This document shows positions 26,428 to 37,568 of a DNA stretch of 62,916 bases, piece by piece. The stretch comes from Bacteroidales bacterium (GTDB lineage: Bacteria > Bacteroidota > Bacteroidia > Bacteroidales > P3). Each line of letters opens with the position of its first letter. Position 1 is the first letter of the stretch. The DNA is taken from NCBI GenBank assembly GCA_017962665.1, contig JAGCUU010000040.1, positions 1 through 62,916 of the forward strand, in the 5' to 3' direction. The position numbers and the translations under genes are program-made. Below the pieces are notes generated by a model, which saw nothing but the letters and a program-made list of their open reading frames with translations, had not been told where the DNA came from and made no database searches.

Positions 26428-26460
26428 AAGTCCGAAAGTTCACTTTCGGACTTTTTTTTA
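26428..26460 (+). terminator. terminator after floA
   Basis: 11-bp stem AAGTCCGAAAG (26428-26438) and CTTTCGGACTT (26443-26453), loop TTCA, then T-run. It marks the end of the core cluster on the left flank of the accessory island. Confidence 0.93.
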
Positions 26461-26734: not shown

Positions 26735-27676
26735 TCACATCTGATATCGTTGCCTGTTCATTGACCTTGCCAAGCCTTCTAATCCTGGATACATTGTTTC
26801 CGAAGTAATATTCATTTGCTCCAATGACATGAATATATCCCACCTATATTCTTTCGGGATTACAATCTTTATTAATGCAATGTCACTTGGTCTTGCCCAG
26901 TTATATGAGCTACTATTGTTTATCATCTCGCGAAAGGGTAAAAATACCGCTTCGTTGTTGTTAGCAATGGAGAAAAAGTTGTCCTCAAAAGTCGAATTAG
27001 GGTCAGATTGTATGGCAAAAAGTCCTTGTTGATGGACAAGCCGTTCGTTAACCTTACGCGGCTTAACCAAATAAATACCCTTTGTGTATTCTCTTTCTGA
27101 ACCACGCATGATATCTAACAAAACAGAGTTTGCCTCTTCGTAGATACAGCAGTCCATTTCATCTTTGTCCTTGCACTTCTTCTCTAGCTCCATTTTATCT
27201 TGAAAGAAAATATCCCTACATATTAGTTGGTTAAGACCCCAAATAGCGCTATCCTCGTCCTCCACCAAGGAATCCATCGCCATAAACAATGCCACATATA
27301 AAGAATAAGTGAAATCCACTAATCTCGTTGGAGCCCCATAATGCTGCATGATAGAGAGCCATTCAATCACATCTTTATCTGCGGGAATAATGGTTTTCTC
27401 ATAACCTTGGTATTTCCATTTAAACTCTTTCAAATTATCTTCTTCATAACCTTTAACAGCATATACATAATGATTGGGATGAAAACGTTTTGCCATCCTC
27501 TCCAACGATGAAGACATTGACCAATCAGCACAACCATGACCTCTGAACACAAATGCCATCAGAAACCTGTTATAGAGTTTGAAGATATCGTCCCAATTCT
27601 CAAGACGGGTTTCTACATACAAACGTTTCCCCTTACACTTTTCTTTAACTTCCTCTATGTTTATTTTTTGCGACAT
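26735..27676 (-). CDS. FRG-domain protein
   Basis: A 313-residue soluble protein with the FRG domain. Marks: FVFRGHGCADWSMSSSLER (about 43-61, the F-R-G triad that names the family), WLSIMQHYGAPTRLVDFTYSLYVALFMAMDS (about 105-135), a VHQQGLFAIQ segment, and a C-terminal ITSETMYPGLEGLAR helix. FRG proteins occur singly or fused to other domains in accessory and phage-linked loci; the biochemical activity is not settled. It is the last gene of the helicase-HNH-unknown-FRG series, 68 nt after its neighbour. Its DNA is AT-rich compared with the core genes. Confidence 0.86.
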   Translation of the reverse strand: MSQKINIEEVKEKCKGKRLYVETRLENWDDIFKLYNRFLMAFVFRGHGCADWSMSSSLERMAKRFHPNHYVYAVKGYEEDNLKEFKWKYQGYEKTIIPADKDVIEWLSIMQHYGAPTRLVDFTYSLYVALFMAMDSLVEDEDSAIWGLNQLICRDIFFQDKMELEKKCKDKDEMDCCIYEEANSVLLDIMRGSEREYTKGIYLVKPRKVNERLVHQQGLFAIQSDPNSTFEDNFFSIANNNEAVFLPFREMINNSSSYNWARPSDIALIKIVIPKEYRWDIFMSLEQMNITSETMYPGLEGLARSMNRQRYQM

Positions 27677-27744
27677 ATATTGTTGATTTCGGCTTCCATT
27701 AATTATTTATTTGGTGCAGTTTTATCTTGGGGTAGAATAGATTA

Positions 27745-29082
27745 TTATCTCCCCTTTTTTGTCCAATACTCAGGAAGGTATTTTGCGGCCAGCATATCCG
27801 TCAATTCATATAGAGGTCTCCTTATTCCTAAGAATAGCCATACATCTTTGAATAATTCGGTGGGGTCAAGCTGAATGATCAAGCCAAACTTTTCAAGTAC
27901 TTTGTCTTTTCCTTTGTCTCTATTTTTTGTGGTAACATTTCTGTAATATTCATATTTCTCAGCACTTGCCGCAATCGTTTTTAATGCAAAATTGACTTCG
28001 GCTTCTTTGATTAATATGGAGTTGTCTGCATTTTCGCAGTAATCATGGAGAATTTGCATTAGTGATGGTTGCTCTTTCTTGTCAGAAAACCCATATAGTT
28101 TCTTGAACCCTTCATAATAAGCCATTACAATCCTGTAAAGATTAAACTGCTTCATCAAATTATCCGAACTCTCCTTATACGCCTTTATTGCGTAACAGAT
28201 ACTCAACTCCACATATCGGATATGGGATACCGGGGTAAATAACTCTTTCATCATCCTTGTCTCCAGATATAGTTTTCCTTTGGGGGTGGCTCGTAAGGCA
28301 TCTTCTTTACAAATAACGTCAGCTCTTTCGCAATCAAACATCATTTTGTCCAAATATGCCATGAACTGTTCGTCATTGTCAATAATTGTCTGTATCTTGT
28401 CGAAATCTCCGAAATGCTGGATAACAGTTCCCTTTAGCTCTTTTGGGGTGAGAGCTTTACTGGTGTCTGCAATTATTACTACATTATTGTCCTCAATATA
28501 TCTTGCGATAAGGTCTTTTAATTCAATCAGCAACCTTAGATAAGTGTTAACCCGTTTCTTGTTTACTTCGGAGCCAACATGCTGCAGGTGTTGAATCACC
28601 CTGATATAGTCGGTATCATAATGCTTTGAAATATTGGAGTCGTCCTCCAGCTTTAGTAATAAGTTGTTTCCCTTGCAGAATTGGATAAACTCATTGCTTT
28701 TTTCAATGATTTCTTTCTTCCATTTCTTGTTAGGCAAAACCGAATTTAATTTCCCTATTTTTGTTTGCTGGCTTTGCCCAATAATATCCCATCCACACAG
28801 ATGGCTTATCCCATGTCTTACAGCAATCTCACAAAAACTATAGCAAATATTATTTTCGTATTGGGTTCTGCTATGGTTTGAGGCCTCATCATAAGACAGA
28901 ATCTCTGCAATGGAAACATCAGTAAAGAAAGCCGTTTCAATTAGTGGAATCAAATATTCACAATCCTTATACAATCCTCCATTATCTCGCAATTGATACA
29001 GCATTTCCAATTGGCTAGCAGTATCTAAAAGCAAGTCAGAAAGGGGTTTGCTTGGATGGATATTTGTTTCTTTTATACTCAT
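27745..29082 (-). CDS. unrecognised 445-residue protein
   Basis: I recognise no family. The protein is soluble, with no signal peptide or membrane segment, rich in Lys, Glu, Leu and Tyr, and looks almost wholly alpha-helical. Possible landmarks are DCEYLIPLIETAFFTDVSIAEIL (about 40-63), CSFCEIAVRHGISH-like Cys/His positions near 82-95, and an ordered end with FKDVWLFLGIRRPLYELTDML. Its ATG follows the HNH gene's stop codon with no gap, so the two are co-translated; the FRG gene is 68 nt downstream. This tight packing suggests it acts with the HNH or the FRG protein, for instance as sensor, cofactor or antitoxin. That is inference only. Confidence 0.72.
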   Translation of the reverse strand: MSIKETNIHPSKPLSDLLLDTASQLEMLYQLRDNGGLYKDCEYLIPLIETAFFTDVSIAEILSYDEASNHSRTQYENNICYSFCEIAVRHGISHLCGWDIIGQSQQTKIGKLNSVLPNKKWKKEIIEKSNEFIQFCKGNNLLLKLEDDSNISKHYDTDYIRVIQHLQHVGSEVNKKRVNTYLRLLIELKDLIARYIEDNNVVIIADTSKALTPKELKGTVIQHFGDFDKIQTIIDNDEQFMAYLDKMMFDCERADVICKEDALRATPKGKLYLETRMMKELFTPVSHIRYVELSICYAIKAYKESSDNLMKQFNLYRIVMAYYEGFKKLYGFSDKKEQPSLMQILHDYCENADNSILIKEAEVNFALKTIAASAEKYEYYRNVTTKNRDKGKDKVLEKFGLIIQLDPTELFKDVWLFLGIRRPLYELTDMLAAKYLPEYWTKKGR

Positions 29083-29856
29083 TTATTCGGAACCCTTTAA
29101 CTCGGTTTGTATTACAAGTTGTATCAACTCCAATTTGTCGGGAACTAATTCAAAGGCTTGTTCGATTAATGCTGTAGCTTCTTTTATCTTCCTCATTTTT
29201 TCCCTGCCTTTTCGTAAATTCTCACGAGTCTGTTCATTCCTCATATTCTCTTCTTGGGTTACCCAACGAAGATTAGTTACGTCATTGTTTGTCTTGTCTG
29301 TATCAATGTGGTCAACATAGGGTTTATTGTCGGGATTAGGGATAAATACTTCGGCAACTAACCTATGTATGGGTATAGAATTAAACACAGGGTAACCAGT
29401 TGCACTAAAACTTCCTTTGTAAACTTTGGTTGATTCATCATCTCTAACACGGCCTTTATTACTAACTTGATACCCTTTAAAGGTTAATGACTCTCTCCAT
29501 TCTTCACCAGGAAGTTCAATAATTGGTACGCAGCCAAACTCCTTAATAATCCTTCTTTTAATTGCGTCTTTCCCTTTAATTGCATCATTATCTCTCGTGA
29601 AGATATCTGCAATTTCAGATATGTTATAGCCCTGTTCTACAAGGTATTTTAGTTTTTTCGTTTGTTCTATTGTCCATCTATCTCTAAGGTGGTCACGTGC
29701 TAATCCTTCTTGAACAAGTTCGGCATACAAGATTTTGGATTCCACGAAGCTAATCCCATACCGCCTATGTAATGGAGGTGCTGCCTTTTTTGTTGAATTT
29801 GTCTCAAAAATATTGATGATATCCTCCAACTGTTCTTGTGTGAATTTCTCTATCAT
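29083..29856 (-). CDS. NUMOD4/HNH endonuclease with N-terminal HTH region
   Basis: A 257-residue protein in three parts. Residues 1-100 hold two helical DNA-binding-like segments, the second (WTIEQTKKLKYLVEQGYNISEIADIF) resembling a SANT/GcrA-type helix-turn-helix. Residues about 115-150 are NUMOD4 (EEWRESLTFKGYQVSNKGRVR). Residues about 160-205 are an HNH nuclease: IPIHRLVAEVF, then VDHIDTDKTNNDVTNLRWVT with the conserved H and N residues. NUMOD4-HNH proteins are mostly homing endonucleases of phages and mobile elements, but the extra N-terminal part and its operon position suggest a domesticated role. The next gene starts directly after its stop. Confidence 0.85.
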   Translation of the reverse strand: MIEKFTQEQLEDIINIFETNSTKKAAPPLHRRYGISFVESKILYAELVQEGLARDHLRDRWTIEQTKKLKYLVEQGYNISEIADIFTRDNDAIKGKDAIKRRIIKEFGCVPIIELPGEEWRESLTFKGYQVSNKGRVRDDESTKVYKGSFSATGYPVFNSIPIHRLVAEVFIPNPDNKPYVDHIDTDKTNNDVTNLRWVTQEENMRNEQTRENLRKGREKMRKIKEATALIEQAFELVPDKLELIQLVIQTELKGSE

Positions 29857-29946
29857 ATTTATACTATGTCGATTTAAACTCGCTTATGATTTCGATTTAT
29901 CTCGGTCACCTTTGCCATATCTTTGCACTCTAAATGGTTGTCAACC

Positions 29947-32742
29947 TTATTTCTTCCCAAACAGCCTTTGCATGACAGACTTATTATTCACTCGTTCCAA
30001 CTCTGCTTTTAGTTGCCCGATTTCGTCCTGTAGGTGCTTTATTTGCACGTCCTTTTCTCCAATGCCATGCGTCAGTTCTCCTTGCTTAATGGTCAAGTCG
30101 TGTATGGTGCGTTTGTCCTCTTCTTGACGCTTCTCGTGCTCGGATTTAAGGCTGCGAAGTAAATCTATCTCACGTTCATAAGCCTCAACCATTACATCCT
30201 TCTCATCCTTGTTTTGAGACAAAGATTTGATTTTGGCATCTTGGCTCTCAATGGTCTTTCGGAGTTCTTCGATTTCCTTCTTTAACTTTCGATTCTCTTC
30301 TTGTAGCTTGGTATTCTCGGTATCTACCGCAGACGGTGCTGGAATCTGTGCCGCAGCGGGTTTATCGGTAGTCGGTTTCTGTTTGTCCTTGATTTGTGAT
30401 TTGGTACGTTTAGGGACAAGTATCTCTTCTTTCTCTTTCGCCACAAGTTCAGAATCTTTCACACACAGCTCACGACCATTGACGCTAATCACAAGAGAAT
30501 CATCGTCAACTCGTTTCATCACTTCGGCTTCATTTTTCCTAAAGAGAACTTTTGCCCCTGGGGTGAAATATCGACCAAACCGGTAACCCGCACGGATATT
30601 CCTGACGTTACCGTTGAAATCCACCACATAATAGTCGTTGTTTTTACCCACCTCGACTATCGTGCCTATTCCCAAAGCGTGGTGTTTCACTTGGTCGCCA
30701 ACCTTGAACTTCATCGGGTCGTCGCGATGGTTGATGAAACCAATGTGACTCCTGTCTATTGAATGAATAATGTTGTCGGTGCCGTTAAAGAGGGATTCGT
30801 CAAACTCGCCCTCAATGACAAAGAGGCTCTTCTTTATCTCCCGCAAGAAGCGAGATGGATACTTGTCCCCACCCACGCTATGATTGAACCCTTCCGAATC
30901 CGACAAGAATAGGCCCTTTTCGGCTCGAGTGACGGCCACATACATCAACCTGCGCTCTTCTTCCAACCCCGCCTCTTTGCTCTCGCGGATGGTTCTTGCG
31001 CTTGGGAACAACCCCTCGGAAAGCCCACACACAAACACATACGGGAACTCCAAACCTTTGGCTTGGTGGATTGTCATCAGTTTGACGGACGATTCCTCTT
31101 TCTTGAAGTCCATATTTGTGTATAGGGCAATATCCTGCAGGTAGGCCTCAACATCCTTTGTATTCTCCTCGTGAGTTTCTTGATAGTACTTCACGGAGAG
31201 CAACAGCTCGTTGAGGTTGTCGATTCTATCTTGGTCTTCGTCTTTTCGGAGCAGGTCGATATATCCGCTCTGTTTCAACACATAATCCAGTATGTCAAGA
31301 ACCGGTTTCTGCCCGATGAATGATTTACACTCTTCTATCAAACGGATAAACTCAGACATTTCGTCACGTTTGATGATAAACGAAGCGTCCTGATGATTTT
31401 TCAATGCGGCAAACAGAGTGGTGTTCTCTTCCGCTGCAAGTTGTTCAAGTTTCTCAATGGAAGCAGGACCGAATGAACGGCCAGGAGTGTTGACGACACG
31501 TTTGAAGGAGAGGTCGTCTTGATTGGCAATCAACCTAAGGTAACACAAAGCATCTTTGACTTCCCTGCGCTCAAAGAAGCGTATTCCTCCCCATACTTCG
31601 TACTTGATGTTCTTACGCATTAAAGCCTGTTCCACTCCTCTGGAAATGTGCGAGGCACGGTATAGTATTGCAATATCATTCCCTTTGCAACCATGCTCCT
31701 TCAGCTTGCTTATCTGTTCGGCAATCCAGTCATATTCCTCCACCTCGGTCTTACCGTGGAAATGTATTGCTTGTGTAGTACCTTCTTTGCGCGTTAGCAA
31801 GTCTTTCTTTATGCGCCGTTTGTTGTGGGAGATAATGGAATTGGCAACATCAAGAATGTTGGGAATAGATCTGTAATTCTCATTGAGGATTATATCTGTT
31901 TCAGCAGGGAAGTGTAGGAAATTATCGATTTTAACACCTCTCCACTCATAGATGCATTGGTCGGGGTCGCCAACAATAAAGATGTTTTTATGTTTCTCTC
32001 CGAGCAACCTGACAATTGACCAATCATAGCCGCTGCAATCTTGTGCTTCGTCAAGCATGATGTAGTTCATCTGCTTCTGCCAGTACTCTTTGGCTTCCTC
32101 AAAATGGTTTAGTATGTAGAGAGCAAACATTATCAAATCCTCAAAGTCAAGAAGAAATGATTTCCGCTGCTTCTTGATATATGCAATTTCGGGTGTGACA
32201 CTCTCAGTTGGGACATTGGCGTTAGGAAGAATTATCGATTCGATGTAATTCTCATAGCCGGTTTTCTCTTTCGTTCCATCGTTTTTTAGACAAAAAATGC
32301 CTTCTAGGAATTGTTTGGTAGTTATCTCGGTATTGTCAAGAGAAAACTCTTTAAACACCTCTTTGGCCAATGATTTCTGGTCTTCCTCGTCAATTATCGT
32401 AAAATTCTTCGGGTAACCGATGCGGTGAATCTCTTGGCGAAGAATCCTTACGCACAAGCTATGTATTGTGCATACGAAGTCATTGACATTACCGGCTGAA
32501 ACGAGCTTGGCAATCCTATTCCGCATTTCCTGCGCCGCCTTGTTGGTGAAAGTGGCGCAAAGTATGTTGGCGGGGTCAATACCCATGTTGTTGACCAGGT
32601 AGGCGTAGCGATGCGCCAACACACGAGTTTTACCCGAACCGGCACCAGCCACAACCCGCACCATACCCTCGGTCGCTTTAACCGCCGCAACCTGGTTTTC
32701 ATTCAAGTCCTTAAACAGGTCTATTTCAGTCGGTGCTTGCAT
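29947..32742 (-). CDS. UvrD/PcrA-like SF1 helicase with Tudor-like and coiled-coil tail
   Basis: A 931-residue SF1A helicase. Q-motif NENQVAAVKA (14-23), Walker A GAGSGKT (33-39), FTNKAAQEM, motif II DEAQD (231-235), GDPDQCIYEWRG, NYRS, a motif V-like LMTIHQAKGLEFPYVF and motif VI VAVTRAEKG are all intact, so it should be active 3'-5'. About 675-740 (FKVGDQVKHHALGIGTIVEVG) is a PcrA-type Tudor-like module. About 800-920 is a long coiled coil (heptads rich in Leu, Glu, Lys) absent from housekeeping PcrA. DEAQDCS in place of the housekeeping DEYQDTN also sets it apart. It has its own promoter and leads the HNH-unknown-FRG series, 90 nt upstream of the HNH gene. Confidence 0.92.
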   Translation of the reverse strand: MQAPTEIDLFKDLNENQVAAVKATEGMVRVVAGAGSGKTRVLAHRYAYLVNNMGIDPANILCATFTNKAAQEMRNRIAKLVSAGNVNDFVCTIHSLCVRILRQEIHRIGYPKNFTIIDEEDQKSLAKEVFKEFSLDNTEITTKQFLEGIFCLKNDGTKEKTGYENYIESIILPNANVPTESVTPEIAYIKKQRKSFLLDFEDLIMFALYILNHFEEAKEYWQKQMNYIMLDEAQDCSGYDWSIVRLLGEKHKNIFIVGDPDQCIYEWRGVKIDNFLHFPAETDIILNENYRSIPNILDVANSIISHNKRRIKKDLLTRKEGTTQAIHFHGKTEVEEYDWIAEQISKLKEHGCKGNDIAILYRASHISRGVEQALMRKNIKYEVWGGIRFFERREVKDALCYLRLIANQDDLSFKRVVNTPGRSFGPASIEKLEQLAAEENTTLFAALKNHQDASFIIKRDEMSEFIRLIEECKSFIGQKPVLDILDYVLKQSGYIDLLRKDEDQDRIDNLNELLLSVKYYQETHEENTKDVEAYLQDIALYTNMDFKKEESSVKLMTIHQAKGLEFPYVFVCGLSEGLFPSARTIRESKEAGLEEERRLMYVAVTRAEKGLFLSDSEGFNHSVGGDKYPSRFLREIKKSLFVIEGEFDESLFNGTDNIIHSIDRSHIGFINHRDDPMKFKVGDQVKHHALGIGTIVEVGKNNDYYVVDFNGNVRNIRAGYRFGRYFTPGAKVLFRKNEAEVMKRVDDDSLVISVNGRELCVKDSELVAKEKEEILVPKRTKSQIKDKQKPTTDKPAAAQIPAPSAVDTENTKLQEENRKLKKEIEELRKTIESQDAKIKSLSQNKDEKDVMVEAYEREIDLLRSLKSEHEKRQEEDKRTIHDLTIKQGELTHGIGEKDVQIKHLQDEIGQLKAELERVNNKSVMQRLFGKK

Positions 32743-32767: not shown

Positions 32768-32797
32768 CAAAGGTACGAATTCTTTTTTGGTTACAAA
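32768..32797 (-). promoter_or_regulatory. promoter of the helicase-HNH-unknown-FRG series
   Basis: TTTG (32797-32794), 18-nt spacer, TACCTTTG (32775-32768) on minus, 26 nt upstream of the helicase ATG and inside the 74-nt gap after the DUF4062-TPR gene. No later promoter is seen before the HNH, 445-residue or FRG genes, which fits a four-gene transcript. Confidence 0.65.
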
Positions 32798-32816: not shown

Positions 32817-34388
32817 TCACAGATGACCATTCTTAATAAGTTTTTGAATGGCATCTATTTTTTCTTTTACAATAATCGTATTAGTATGTTGAGGTCCAAG
32901 TTTTTCTAGGAAAATAACATATGCTTTATCCATATAATCCAATGCTTTTCCATAGCTTTTTTGGTTGAAAAAGATACTGCCAATATTATGATAAATGGTC
33001 GCAGTATCTGGATGATCAAAACCGAGCTCTTTCTCCCGAATTGATAGAGCCTTGAAATAATAATCCATTGCAAATTCAAATTTGCCCATGTCACTATATA
33101 CAGTTGCAATGTTGTTATAAGTAGTGGCAATATCTAAACGGTTTTTGCTTGGATCTTTCTCTTGTTTTTCTTTCGCATTGAAATAATACTCTAAGGCTTT
33201 TGTATAATTCCTTTGTTTCCAATATACAGACCCAATATTATTGCAAAATTTAGCATACATAGGATGATCGGAGCCATACTCTTTATTGTGTACTTCAATA
33301 GCCTTCAGATAGTATTCTAAGGCCTTAGAAAAGACTCCTTGATAGTAGTAGGTTAATCCGATGTTGTTATATATTATTGCATAATTTGGATTGTACCGAC
33401 CTTGGCTTTCATCAAAGATATTCAAAACTTTATGATAGTACTCTCTAGCATTATGGTATTCTCCTATTACCCGATAAATCTCTCCTAAATTGTTATATGA
33501 ACTAATGGCTTCTTTATGCTCGCCTCCGTATATTTCCTCCAAAAGATGTATTTGGCGAAGATAAATCTCCTTGGAATCGTAATAAAAACCATATTCTTCT
33601 AAGAATTGTGCATAATCAAATAGTAATCTAGCATAGCTCTTCTTTTCGTATTCGGAGGCTTCTGCCCACAAGTCTGCTTTCATATAAAGTTTTTTCGCTT
33701 TAAAAATCTTTTCAGCAGTCGTGAACCCATTCTCACCCATAACTTTATCAACCTCCTTGAGAAGGTTTCCAATATCTTGGTGTAACTTCTTTTTTAGAAA
33801 TAATTGGTTTCTTTTGCTGTCTTCATACTGGGCAAAACGTGCATCGGCCTCTCTTTCGAGTGTGTTTTCTTTGGTGTCAGATTCATTTAAATCAAGTAGA
33901 CGCCTTTCATAAAGAATCAAATCATGTTCTATTTTCCCTCTTAAGTCTTCTCTGTTTTTGCAGTTAGTCCAATAGAGTCCAATGTTATTGTTGTTTAAAA
34001 GTCCTTGAAATTTCAATAACTCCTTGCTCTTTTCCTCTTCAGGAAGATCAAAAAAGTAAATACGAATTGTGGGAATTGTTTGCAATTTTTTTGTTTGTAC
34101 CTCACGTGCAACTTCAAATTCGTGGAGAGTGGCTTCCCCGGCACCTACTTTAAAGAGAAAGAGAAATATGTTACATTCTCTGATGTTATCATCAATAATT
34201 TCTTGCGACGGTCTTCCTGTATATCCTAAATCTATATCCTCACATTTAACAAGTTCGACATCAATCTTATCATATTTGAATATTGGGCGAATGGAGTTCA
34301 TAATATAATCTCCTAACATCCTACGTTCATCTTCCAATTCAATGATAGATGATGCGAGAAAGATTCTAATTGTTTTATCTTGTTGCAC
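32817..34388 (-). CDS. DUF4062-like domain with TPR array
   Basis: A 523-residue soluble protein. Residues about 7-160 resemble DUF4062, a TIR-like fold: IRIFLASSIIELEDERRMLGDYI, then SQEIIDDNIRECNIFLFLFK and EFEVAREVQ. A linker follows, then from about 255 to 510 at least six tetratricopeptide repeats of kinesin-light-chain type (YNNIG, YYLKAIEVHNKEYG, HPDTATIYHNIGSI and similar). DUF4062 paired with repeat arrays occurs in proteins thought to sense intruders, as in bacterial NLR-like designs, but it has no NTPase here. It has its own -7 promoter match, is AT-rich, and precedes the helicase unit on the same strand. Confidence 0.78.
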   Translation of the reverse strand: MQQDKTIRIFLASSIIELEDERRMLGDYIMNSIRPIFKYDKIDVELVKCEDIDLGYTGRPSQEIIDDNIRECNIFLFLFKVGAGEATLHEFEVAREVQTKKLQTIPTIRIYFFDLPEEEKSKELLKFQGLLNNNNIGLYWTNCKNREDLRGKIEHDLILYERRLLDLNESDTKENTLEREADARFAQYEDSKRNQLFLKKKLHQDIGNLLKEVDKVMGENGFTTAEKIFKAKKLYMKADLWAEASEYEKKSYARLLFDYAQFLEEYGFYYDSKEIYLRQIHLLEEIYGGEHKEAISSYNNLGEIYRVIGEYHNAREYYHKVLNIFDESQGRYNPNYAIIYNNIGLTYYYQGVFSKALEYYLKAIEVHNKEYGSDHPMYAKFCNNIGSVYWKQRNYTKALEYYFNAKEKQEKDPSKNRLDIATTYNNIATVYSDMGKFEFAMDYYFKALSIREKELGFDHPDTATIYHNIGSIFFNQKSYGKALDYMDKAYVIFLEKLGPQHTNTIIVKEKIDAIQKLIKNGHL

Positions 34389-34420
34389 GAGTTGTAATAT
34401 ATGTAATTATTTCAAGGTGC

Positions 34421-34428
34421 AAAGGTAC
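34421..34428 (-). promoter_or_regulatory. -7 element of the DUF4062-TPR gene
   Basis: TACCTTTG (34428-34421) on minus, 32 nt upstream of the ATG, identical to the -7 octamer of the helicase promoter. A proper TTTG is not found at the right distance. Confidence 0.5.
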
Positions 34429-34547
34429 GAAATATTTCTCATTTTTCACTACATTTTTTTTCAGCGGTGTTGTCTCACTTCATTTAATTGTTTCTATCGG
34501 TGTTCGCAGGCATACCACAAGGCCATTCCCTTCGGTCAGGCAGCAGC

Positions 34548-34612: not shown

Positions 34613-35806
34613 TTACTTTTCTTTGGCAGCCTCCTGCTCTTTCCGGTATTCTTCCCAGTCGGCTGTGGTAGCGCTTTCTATAAGGTACTGCCGCATTTCT
34701 TCCTCGGAGGGCAGCTGGAGGCGGTACTTGCTGACGAACATATTTTGCGAGAGACCTTCCGTAGCGTACTGCACAGTGGTTTCGCCATAGTCGGTGCAGA
34801 GCAGCAACCCGATGGGCGGGTTATCATCTGCCTGCATCACCTCATGCTTGTAGTAGTTCATGTAGAGGTTTAGCTGCGAGGCGTATTCGTGGCGGAAGCG
34901 GTCGATCTTGAGGTCGATGATAACGTGGCACTTCAGGATACGATGGTAGAAGATGAGGTCGGCCTTGAAATAGTCGCGGTCGATGAGTATGCGCTTCTGG
35001 CGTGCCTCAAAGCAGAAGCCGCGCCCCATCTCCATCAGCACCATCTGGAGGTGGTTGAGGATGGTGGTCTCCAACTTGGTTTCGGTGACGACATCCTGCG
35101 AAGGGAGGCCGAGGAATTCGAGCGAGACGGGATTATGGATAATGTCGCGCGGCGTGAGCTGCTGAGCGTTTTGGGCAGTCAGACGCTGTAGGGCTTTCTT
35201 GTCCTTCGAAAGGCCCATGCGCTCGTAGTATTGCGAAGAGACCTGTCGGTCGAGTTCGGTGACCGTCCAGCATCCACGGATGGTCTCCTGTTCATAGAAG
35301 GCTCGTTTCAAAGGATCACTTATACTTGAAAGAGCAGAAAGGCTTGTGTAATTGATTCGATTGAACAACCTTTCGGGCGGTGTTGCCCATTCTTCCAATT
35401 TGGCGGTTGCTGACCGCCAAATTTCAACCTCTTTGTTTTCAGTATTTTGCAATTTGGCGGTTGATAACCGCCAAATTGTAGGAGCGCCTGAAGATAACAA
35501 TTGGGTACTAATGCTTTCAAGATATTTGCCCACTTCAATTCCTATCACAGGATATACTAAGTAGAATTGCCGGTACTCTCGAAGTCTTCTTGGGTTAAAT
35601 CCCTTTTTATTGATGCTTTGCGCTAACCGATTGATAAGGTTTTCGCCGTACTTTGCACGGTCTTCACCATGCTGCTCATACTCCACTATATAATACCCCA
35701 CCAGCCAGTTGCGAGCTGTGAGCGAGAGGTTGATGGCATGTGCCGCCTGTGCTTGCAGCACATCCTGCACCTGATTGATTTGTCCAACTAACGATTCAAA
35801 GTTCAT
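34613..35806 (-). CDS. DUF1016 (YhcG-type) PDDEXK nuclease domain protein
   Basis: A 397-residue protein. The N-terminal half is the DUF1016 helical domain (ARNWLVGYYIVEYEQHGEDRAKYGENLI and FNPRRLREYRQFYLVYP); the C-terminal half is a YhcG-type PD-(D/E)XK nuclease with FKADLIFYHRILKCHVIIDLKIDRF (D...DLK) and LCTDYGE. Homologues are linked to restriction, retron and defence loci. I start it at ATG 35806 (MNFESL) because a promoter -7 octamer at 35842-35835 would put the transcript start at about the earlier ATG 35830. Between the two halves lie two in-frame copies of a palindrome-coded peptide (IWR..TAKL). The gene is more GC-rich than the FRG and DUF4062 genes and ends in a terminator. Confidence 0.87.
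   Translation of the reverse strand: MNFESLVGQINQVQDVLQAQAAHAINLSLTARNWLVGYYIVEYEQHGEDRAKYGENLINRLAQSINKKGFNPRRLREYRQFYLVYPVIGIEVGKYLESISTQLLSSGAPTIWRLSTAKLQNTENKEVEIWRSATAKLEEWATPPERLFNRINYTSLSALSSISDPLKRAFYEQETIRGCWTVTELDRQVSSQYYERMGLSKDKKALQRLTAQNAQQLTPRDIIHNPVSLEFLGLPSQDVVTETKLETTILNHLQMVLMEMGRGFCFEARQKRILIDRDYFKADLIFYHRILKCHVIIDLKIDRFRHEYASQLNLYMNYYKHEVMQADDNPPIGLLLCTDYGETTVQYATEGLSQNMFVSKYRLQLPSEEEMRQYLIESATTADWEEYRKEQEAAKEK
35397..35477. repeat. pair of in-frame palindromic repeats inside the DUF1016 gene
   Basis: Two near-identical palindromes: AATTTGGCGGT/ACCGCCAAATT (35397-35407 and 35413-35423) and AATTTGGCGGTT/AACCGCCAAATT (35451-35462 and 35466-35477). Their starts are 54 bp (18 codons) apart, so the frame is kept, and both encode IWR-x2-TAKL. 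They resemble palindromic elements that insert within protein genes. Confidence 0.75.
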
Positions 35807-35834
35807 CGCTATACTCCATAGTATTTTCAATCTG

Positions 35835-36154: not shown

Positions 36155-36185
36155 TTTGTTAGTTCGAAAATTGTCTGTATCTTTG
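36155..36185 (+). promoter_or_regulatory. promoter of the AAA/DUF4143 gene
   Basis: TTTG (36155-36158), 19-nt spacer, TATCTTTG (36178-36185), an exact consensus match 63 nt upstream of the ATG. Confidence 0.75.
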
Positions 36186-36248: not shown

Positions 36249-37568
36249 ATGACAATACAAAGAGAGCAATATATCAGTGAGTTGCTAAACAAAAGGTGGA
36301 ACAGAAAAGTGAAGATTGTCACCGGCATCCGTCGCTGCGGAAAGTCGTTCCTGCTTTTCAACCTCTACAAGGATTACCTGCTGAACGAGGGGGTGGCGAA
36401 GGACTGCTTCGTGGAGCTGGCGCTGGACAAGAAGGCGCACGCAAAGTACCGGAATCCCAACGAGCTGTACGACTATGTGCTCCGCAAGACGAAGGACGAC
36501 GAGAAGCACTATTATGTGTTCATCGACGAAATCCAGCTGTCGTACAAGGTGAAGAATGAGGATGTGGACGAACGGCTGGTGCCAGAAGAGGACCGCGAGC
36601 TGCTCTACACCACTTTCTACGACATACTGAACGACCTGATGGGACGCAAAAACCTCGACATCTACGTCACCGGCTCGAACAGCAAGATGCTCTCGAAAGA
36701 TATCGTAACGAACTTCCGCGACCGCGGGTCGGAGATAAAGGTATTTCCGCTGTCGTTCAAGGAGTTCTACCCTGTGTCGGGAATGGAGAAGGCGGATGCG
36801 CTGGAGGTATACCTGACCTACGGCGGGATGCCGCTGGCGGTGCTGGAGAAGGACGAGACGGAGAAACGCAAATACCTGAAAGGACTCCACAAACGGGTTT
36901 ATATCAAGGACATCGTGGAATGCTACAAGCTGAAGAACGACGAGGTGCTGGAGGCGCTGATCGCCGCGCTGTCGTCGGCTGTGGGTTCGCTGACCAATCC
37001 GCACAACCTGGCAAATGCGGCGGGAACGCTGATGAAGCGCAGCACTTCGGACAACACCATCAAGAACTACCTGGATTACCTTGAGGAGTCCTACCTCTTT
37101 GTGAGTGCACAACGTTACGACATCAAGGGGAAGCGCTATTTCGAGAACACGCTGAAATACTATTCGATGGACACCGGGCTGCGCAACGCCAAGCTGAACT
37201 TCCGCCAGCAGGAGAAGTCGCACCTGATGGAGAACATGATCTTCATCGAGCTCATCCGCAGAGGATACAGCGTGGATGTGGGCGTGGTGGAACTGACCCT
37301 CGTGAAGGACGGCAAGAAGCAGCAGTCGCAATACGAGATCGACTTCATCGTCAACACGGGGCGCGAGAAGGTGTACATCCAGTCGGCGCTGAACGTGGAT
37401 ACCGAGACGAAGCGGAATCAAGAGACCTTCTCGTTGAGGAACTCGGGCGACTTCTTCCGCAAGATTGTCATCGTGGACGGCAACGCAAAACCCTGGACAG
37501 ACGAGGACGGCATCATGTACATGGGTGTCATTCCATTTCTGCTGGAGGAGGCGGGGAAGATAATCTGA
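36249..37568 (+). CDS. AAA (AAA_14) ATPase with DUF4143
   Basis: A 439-residue ATPase. N-terminal AAA_14: KIVTGIRRCGKS Walker A (about 22-33), Walker B VFIDEIQ (about 88-94), and a sensor-like YVTGSNSKML. The C-terminal DUF4143 part holds a PD-(D/E)XK-like end: GLRNAKLNFRQQEKSHLMENMIF, EIDFIV and YIQSALNV. Such ATPases are common, often laterally acquired in Bacteroidota and archaea, with unknown role. The codon use differs sharply from its neighbours: most third positions are G or C (CTG, AAG, GAG, GTG), against the A/T-rich genes just to the left. It has its own promoter and leader hairpin and is a single gene. Confidence 0.9.
   Translation: MTIQREQYISELLNKRWNRKVKIVTGIRRCGKSFLLFNLYKDYLLNEGVAKDCFVELALDKKAHAKYRNPNELYDYVLRKTKDDEKHYYVFIDEIQLSYKVKNEDVDERLVPEEDRELLYTTFYDILNDLMGRKNLDIYVTGSNSKMLSKDIVTNFRDRGSEIKVFPLSFKEFYPVSGMEKADALEVYLTYGGMPLAVLEKDETEKRKYLKGLHKRVYIKDIVECYKLKNDEVLEALIAALSSAVGSLTNPHNLANAAGTLMKRSTSDNTIKNYLDYLEESYLFVSAQRYDIKGKRYFENTLKYYSMDTGLRNAKLNFRQQEKSHLMENMIFIELIRRGYSVDVGVVELTLVKDGKKQQSQYEIDFIVNTGREKVYIQSALNVDTETKRNQETFSLRNSGDFFRKIVIVDGNAKPWTDEDGIMYMGVIPFLLEEAGKII

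Follow-up and report, generated by a model that had tools for sequence, protein, structure and literature searches.

In the Gabija system, the UvrD-type helicase GajB is reported (PMC10952713) to bind DNA termini and to promote the nuclease GajA. FRG domains belong to the ART superfamily and are suggested (PMC9503650) to be NADases in prokaryotic immunity; searches of the open-licence literature gave no experimental test of this. DUF4062 proteins were shown in a 2026 preprint (PMC13174449) to be antiphage NADases. A UvrD-type helicase, an FRG-domain protein and a DUF4062-like protein lie together in the window, by which we mean the whole 62,916-nucleotide stretch analysed here (contig JAGCUU010000040.1 of the Bacteroidales bacterium assembly GCA_017962665.1). 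There, an accessory UvrD/PcrA-type superfamily 1 helicase is followed on the minus strand by an HNH nuclease, an orphan protein of 445 residues and an FRG-domain protein. Searches of open-licence literature listings gave no paper naming a helicase-HNH-FRG set. We tentatively interpret the locus as a defence island in which a mobile accessory helicase is paired with an exchangeable effector cassette and works in a Gabija-like manner.

The helicase (931 aa) is encoded at 29947..32742, the HTH-NUMOD4-HNH nuclease (helix-turn-helix, HTH; 257 aa, of the homing-endonuclease kind) at 29083..29856, the 445-aa protein at 27745..29082 and the FRG protein (313 aa) at 26735..27676, all on the minus strand. 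From FRG to helicase the intergenic gaps are 68, 0 and 90 bp, so that the 445-aa frame begins directly at the HNH stop. A Bacteroidota-type promoter (TTTG-N18-TACCTTTG, minus strand, 32768..32797) matches the pattern exactly ahead of the helicase and is the sole such site in 26.4-36.1 kb; the window holds nine sites against 1.41 expected, a number reached by none of 100 shuffles. Terminator-like sites are rarer in the region than in shuffles (4 versus a mean of 7.4), and the only one on the minus strand within the four genes is a weak stem (28804-28789) inside the 445-aa frame. A single transcript across the four genes would fit this layout. The original prediction had described the same four genes behind one promoter, with the same identities for the recognisable three, and the open frames, the promoter match and the Pfam domains bear it out. 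Its claim that the DNA is AT-rich stands for the HNH, 445-aa and FRG genes (GC content 0.370, 0.371 and 0.383) but not for the helicase, which at 0.452 is close to the window average of 0.459; a helicase as AT-rich as the three genes behind it was accordingly rejected.

The helicase contains UvrD N-terminal and C-terminal domains (Pfam, 6e-71 and 2.3e-71) with the motifs GAGSGKT, DEAQD and GDPDQ, and its fast-evolving, coiled-coil-like tail ends in RLFGKK. Its scores fall below the housekeeping equivalog cut-offs for pcrA (620.2 versus 911.2 bits) and uvrD (527.1 versus 1144.45 bits), Bacteroidota core UvrD genes being unscored in this comparison. Among 190 genomes of the family, only four others carry an orthologue (better than 1e-130), three in the same genus at 81-83% identity and one in another genus at 43%, and most genomes have just a UvrD of approximately 36-42% identity to it. 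A scan of species genomes returned these three close orthologues, at loci L077 (genome G760), L078 (G307) and L079 (G934), and a fourth close locus, L086, which is 92% identical across the first 178 residues, after which the contig ends inside the helicase. The sister genome G307 encodes both the helicase and a second UvrD of 40% identity, so the gene is accessory there, and the helicase as a whole is best explained, again tentatively, as a patchily distributed, accessory UvrD/PcrA-type paralogue.

A housekeeping alternative is that the helicase is this organism's only UvrD, a replacement of the core gene, and that mobile genes landed behind it. The window's own genome has no second full UvrD, its only further matches being two short ones (E approximately 1e-7) in one long frame, and the GC content of the helicase is that of its surroundings. 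The genome, however, is just 76.6% complete, the sister G307 has both genes, and the helicase scores far under the PcrA equivalog cut-off. The helicase also sits amid different genes in each genome, and its GC content is below that of nearby core genes in L079 (0.407 versus 0.564) and L077 (0.366 versus 0.576). To this alternative we give the least weight of the readings considered here.

More distant helicases, of 50-51% identity (L080, L072/L099), have no tail and no effector-type gene behind them, and the 43% helicase of G330 has an LRR_5 tail with no close codirectional gene behind. No relatives of the helicase or of the FRG protein were found in viral_contigs. Among the nearest helicases in phage and plasmid records, that of MT835914 (40.8%) has ordinary-looking bacterial neighbours, and from its reading frames this record may, at a guess, be bacterial DNA. 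On the Selenomonas plasmid pSRC1, an annotated NAD-dependent deacylase lies 5 bp downstream of the helicase (38.2%). It was not counted as a partner, since by annotation it is an ordinary-type sirtuin.

The slot behind the helicase is occupied differently in each distinct close-orthologue arrangement. Where the window has the HNH, 445-aa and FRG genes, L077 has a SIR2-like gene 23 bp behind the helicase, and the near-identical loci L078 and L079 have a HEPN-like gene (RNKLLH) 56-58 bp behind, in each case on the same strand. L086 was left out of this count because its contig ends within the helicase. The DNA similarity to L077, L078 and L079 ends exactly at the helicase stop codon (29948-29947). 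On the other side it covers the promoter in L078 and L079, and mostly in L086; in L077 it begins 16 bp before the start codon. The genes upstream differ as well: a DUF4062-TPR gene in the window, a 252-aa protein with the string FIDILGFSN in L078/L079 and, in L077, a pair of small genes. The other genes of the window's island are absent from the orthologue loci, except that L086 has a distant DUF4143-type ATPase.

The exchange bears directly on the original prediction, which saw in the four genes a dedicated candidate defence system. Shared orientation, spacing and the single promoter favour such a system, and every family but the orphan has defence or candidate-defence relatives. The co-occurrence check that had been proposed for it came out negative: HNH, 445-aa and FRG genes occur in none of the three readable close-orthologue loci (L077, L078, L079). 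The orphan's relative in G257 lies apart from the other genes, and the helicase differs in composition from the trio. In relatives the parts are found apart from one another, so a four-gene system finds no support here, and we consider it improbable.

Two side observations concern the region upstream of the helicase. In two sister genomes (L079 871-1629; L040 10293-11099), the gene immediately preceding the helicase encodes the conserved FIDILGFSN protein. The L079 copy has no Pfam or PADLOC match, and the namesake string is reminiscent of nucleotide cyclases. The gap upstream of the DUF4062-TPR gene (34402-34517) contains two short matches, one of 67 bp (L077 1158-1224), just ahead of that locus's first small gene, and one of 50 bp (L079 5742-5788). 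These are possibly a shared promoter or insertion site, and possibly chance.

The two exchanged partners have motifs that are conserved in their relatives. The motif RN(K/M)(L/I)LHN, which we take to be the HEPN catalytic motif and on which the HEPN label rests, is present in 4/4 HEPN-like sequences (partners and relatives). GAG(A/S)S and WNYD are both present in all six SIR2-like sequences (partner and relatives), and the SIR2 label rests on them together with a sub-threshold Pfam match. Relatives were sought in 137 genomes of the order for each, and were found in five genomes for the SIR2-like protein and in two for the HEPN-like protein. Four of these seven adjoin defence-type genes. In G098 a type IIG restriction enzyme lies 12 bp before the SIR2-like gene; in G003 a IIG/PglX-like methylase and a helicase gene precede the HEPN-like gene; in G131 and G095 a trypsin-like gene precedes the SIR2-like gene, the trypsin match in G095 being sub-threshold. 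As a control, the partner motifs were sought in the genes that follow other UvrD genes in the family. Of 27 such loci, L025 and L026 were left out, no helicase frame having been found there, and none of the 25 readable following genes has the motifs.

In L108, L110 and L111, the SIR2-like relatives come straight after trypsin-like genes in two genomes and after a type IIG restriction enzyme in the other, and from these contexts the SIR2-like gene looks like a shared effector. In L113 (2-6325), from another family of the order, a IIG/PglX-like methylase and a helicase gene showing a DrmD-type match are followed, after 163 bp, by a HEPN-like gene. The 825-aa restriction-enzyme frame in L111 (3160-5637) also matches a Y1 transposase domain (9.8e-12, residues 612-665), which suggests an interrupted or fused gene.

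A number of points weigh against pairing of the helicase with exchangeable effectors. The HEPN-like partner has no Pfam HEPN match, and the SIR2 match is below the Pfam threshold (5.3e-4, 20.5 versus 24.5 bits). Three of the seven partner relatives are without an evident defence neighbour, one of them lying at a contig start, and a UvrD helicase is beside none of the seven that were inspected. UvrD genes often have a codirectional gene close behind them (16/25 controls), and a tight codirectional neighbour was for this reason rejected as notable in itself; the motif control was devised after the motifs had been seen. The tail differs less between the window and the HEPN-paired loci than either does from the SIR2-paired locus, and this comparison led us to reject a tail that clearly tracks its partner. 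Defence genes cluster anyway, so that effector-type neighbours are to be expected in an island. Just three distinct arrangements were observed, two of them single loci, and three are too few to decide firmly whether the genes form a modular system or a cluster of unrelated neighbours.

Such a cluster is the strongest competitor, and we regard it as nearly as likely as the paired helicase and cassette. The genes would then be separate defence-type or mobile genes, each acting alone, that accumulated in an insertion hotspot between FloA and a nuclease gene. In the sister genome G739, FloA adjoins the nuclease gene found at 38.2 kb in the window, and the 26.4-38 kb stretch is extra relative to that genome; of the ten FloA loci fetched, the other nine showed no such nuclease gene within approximately 14 kb of FloA. 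The difference in GC between the three AT-rich genes and the helicase, the absence of the trio from the readable orthologue loci, and the wide distribution of FRG and HNH genes each without the other also fit independent acquisition. Against it, the HNH and 445-aa genes abut, all four genes are codirectional with small gaps, a single Bacteroidota-type promoter lies in the block, and the orthologous helicases, too, are immediately followed by effector-type genes. At one edge of the island, 26428-26453 forms a near-perfect 11-bp stem followed by a T run, likely the FloA terminator.

If the helicase and the cassette do work together, a mechanism borrowed from Gabija can be proposed, in which the helicase senses DNA and activates its neighbour. 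The helicase would act on the DNA of an invading phage, engaging its ends or replication intermediates, and would switch on whichever effector adjoins it, either with its tail or via ATP turnover. In the window, DNA cleavage would then fall to the HNH protein, and NAD+ consumption or modification of a target to the FRG protein; the 445-aa protein may act as an adaptor or regulator. Physical coupling of the helicase to its neighbours and a role in defence are part of this proposal. A bolder version is that the loci represent an undescribed modular defence family, in which a mobile UvrD-type helicase with a partner-contacting tail is the common sensor, while a SIR2-like NADase, a HEPN-like RNase and the cassette of HNH, tandem-HEPN-like and FRG proteins are interchangeable and swapped exactly at the helicase stop. 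We consider this extended version unlikely as it stands. If the helicase does work with exchangeable effectors, it would be added to the defence modules for which such combinations are known, and the sister loci would offer a natural swap experiment on how one DNA motor sets off killing enzymes of different chemistry. Otherwise, the locus would still be a defence island with clear limits that contains an FRG gene and a tandem-HEPN-like protein that is nearly an orphan.

The 445-aa protein, called unrecognised in the original prediction, indeed had no family match in Pfam, PADLOC, NCBIfam or PHROGs under the limits applied. It was found in its own genome only, both among 395 genomes of the class and, as a two-row profile, among 296 genomes of the phylum. 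The 295 genomes of the order gave one clear relative (G257, E 6.7e-13) as well as a weak match interrupted by stops (G233), and no relatives were found in plasmids, phages, genome_contigs or viral_contigs. The G257 relative (L005) is 496 aa long and 23% identical to the 445-aa protein; no helicase, HNH or FRG gene was found in the 17 kb around it. It is internally duplicated: in a two-sequence comparison its halves are 29.7% identical along 101 residues (E 1.2e-9), and there is one Rx4H motif per half, RNLSIH (161) and RECSVH (391). The aligned residues of the 445-aa protein are SNISKH and RNVTTK, so that no Rx4-6H motif stands at the expected places; its two Rx4-6H strings (89, 161) are both off the expected position. 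The halves of the 445-aa protein do not match each other (best E 1.5), and no HEPN protein was matched in Pfam or among PDB sequences, where a single match of E 0.86 was taken as chance. From the alignment to its relative, the protein is probably a tandem HEPN-like fold that has lost one arginine and one histidine, and it may be, as a guess, a pseudo-enzyme or adaptor.

The FRG protein is well supported, with a Pfam FRG match of 1.3e-20 (74.5 bits versus a cut-off of 25), FRG at residue 44 and RLVDFT at residue 118. Relatives occur at 15 plasmid loci, three of which were inspected. One adjoins a MazE-MazF pair, and within 6 kb of the three loci no helicase or HNH gene is annotated, the plasmid gene tables being incomplete. 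In the HNH protein, NUMOD4 (7.6e-07, 29.7 versus 23.4 bits) and HNH_3 (7.2e-11, 42 versus 24.8 bits) are both above cut-off. It also matches the PADLOC homing endonuclease model (1.6e-17) and phage HNH families, and over its C-terminal part it resembles phage homing-type endonucleases. Matches were found in 1672 phage records, none spanning 80% of its length, and in viral_contigs at one locus, where the match is confined to the HNH part.

Upstream of the helicase, three further genes belong to the island. The DUF4062-TPR gene (523 aa, 32817..34388, minus strand), like the YhcG gene beyond it, was no part of the original prediction; it directly precedes the helicase, at a distance of 74 bp, and has the lowest GC content in the island (0.339). 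TPR_12 matches at 3.2e-51, and DUF4062 is sub-threshold (7.8e-4, 20.0 bits versus the Pfam cut-off of 24.7). TLHEFEVA at residue 87 contains a glutamate that may or may not correspond to the catalytic one of the published protein. The gene may be a separate, NADase-type defence gene. Next are a YhcG/DUF1016 PDDEXK-nuclease-type protein (34613..35830, minus strand; YhcG_C 2.5e-47, PADLOC candidate PDC-S02 1.3e-118) and an AAA_14/DUF4143 ATPase (36249-37568; PADLOC candidate PDC-S01 5.1e-105) with its own Bacteroidota-type promoter (36155-36185). A defence-type setting of the block is supported by the FRG/PDC-S15 and YhcG/PDC-S02 matches and by the literature on DUF4062.

Among described systems, Gabija resembles the locus in that a UvrD-like helicase and an effector gene are neighbours. 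The window helicase is matched by GajB models (best 5.7e-96), although these are unspecific among UvrDs. The helicase is longer, with its coiled-coil-like tail, and the partners vary between genomes. A GajA-type ATPase-TOPRIM nuclease was not found in the eight proteins scanned (25.4-37.6 kb), and because GajA is absent the block is not Gabija. The best PADLOC match of the helicase is to the DRT-associated helicase (RTasHel, 4.4e-102), but no reverse transcriptase domain was found in the window proteins scanned. Swarozyc, a single-gene DUF4062 TIR-like NADase, shares a DUF4062-like N-terminus with the gene upstream of the helicase, although the match is below the Pfam cut-off and the C-terminus of the window protein consists of TPR. 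The candidate family PDC-S15 is matched by the FRG protein over its full length (3.9e-44), and the window differs from it in that the FRG gene ends a gene row with an HNH and an orphan protein.

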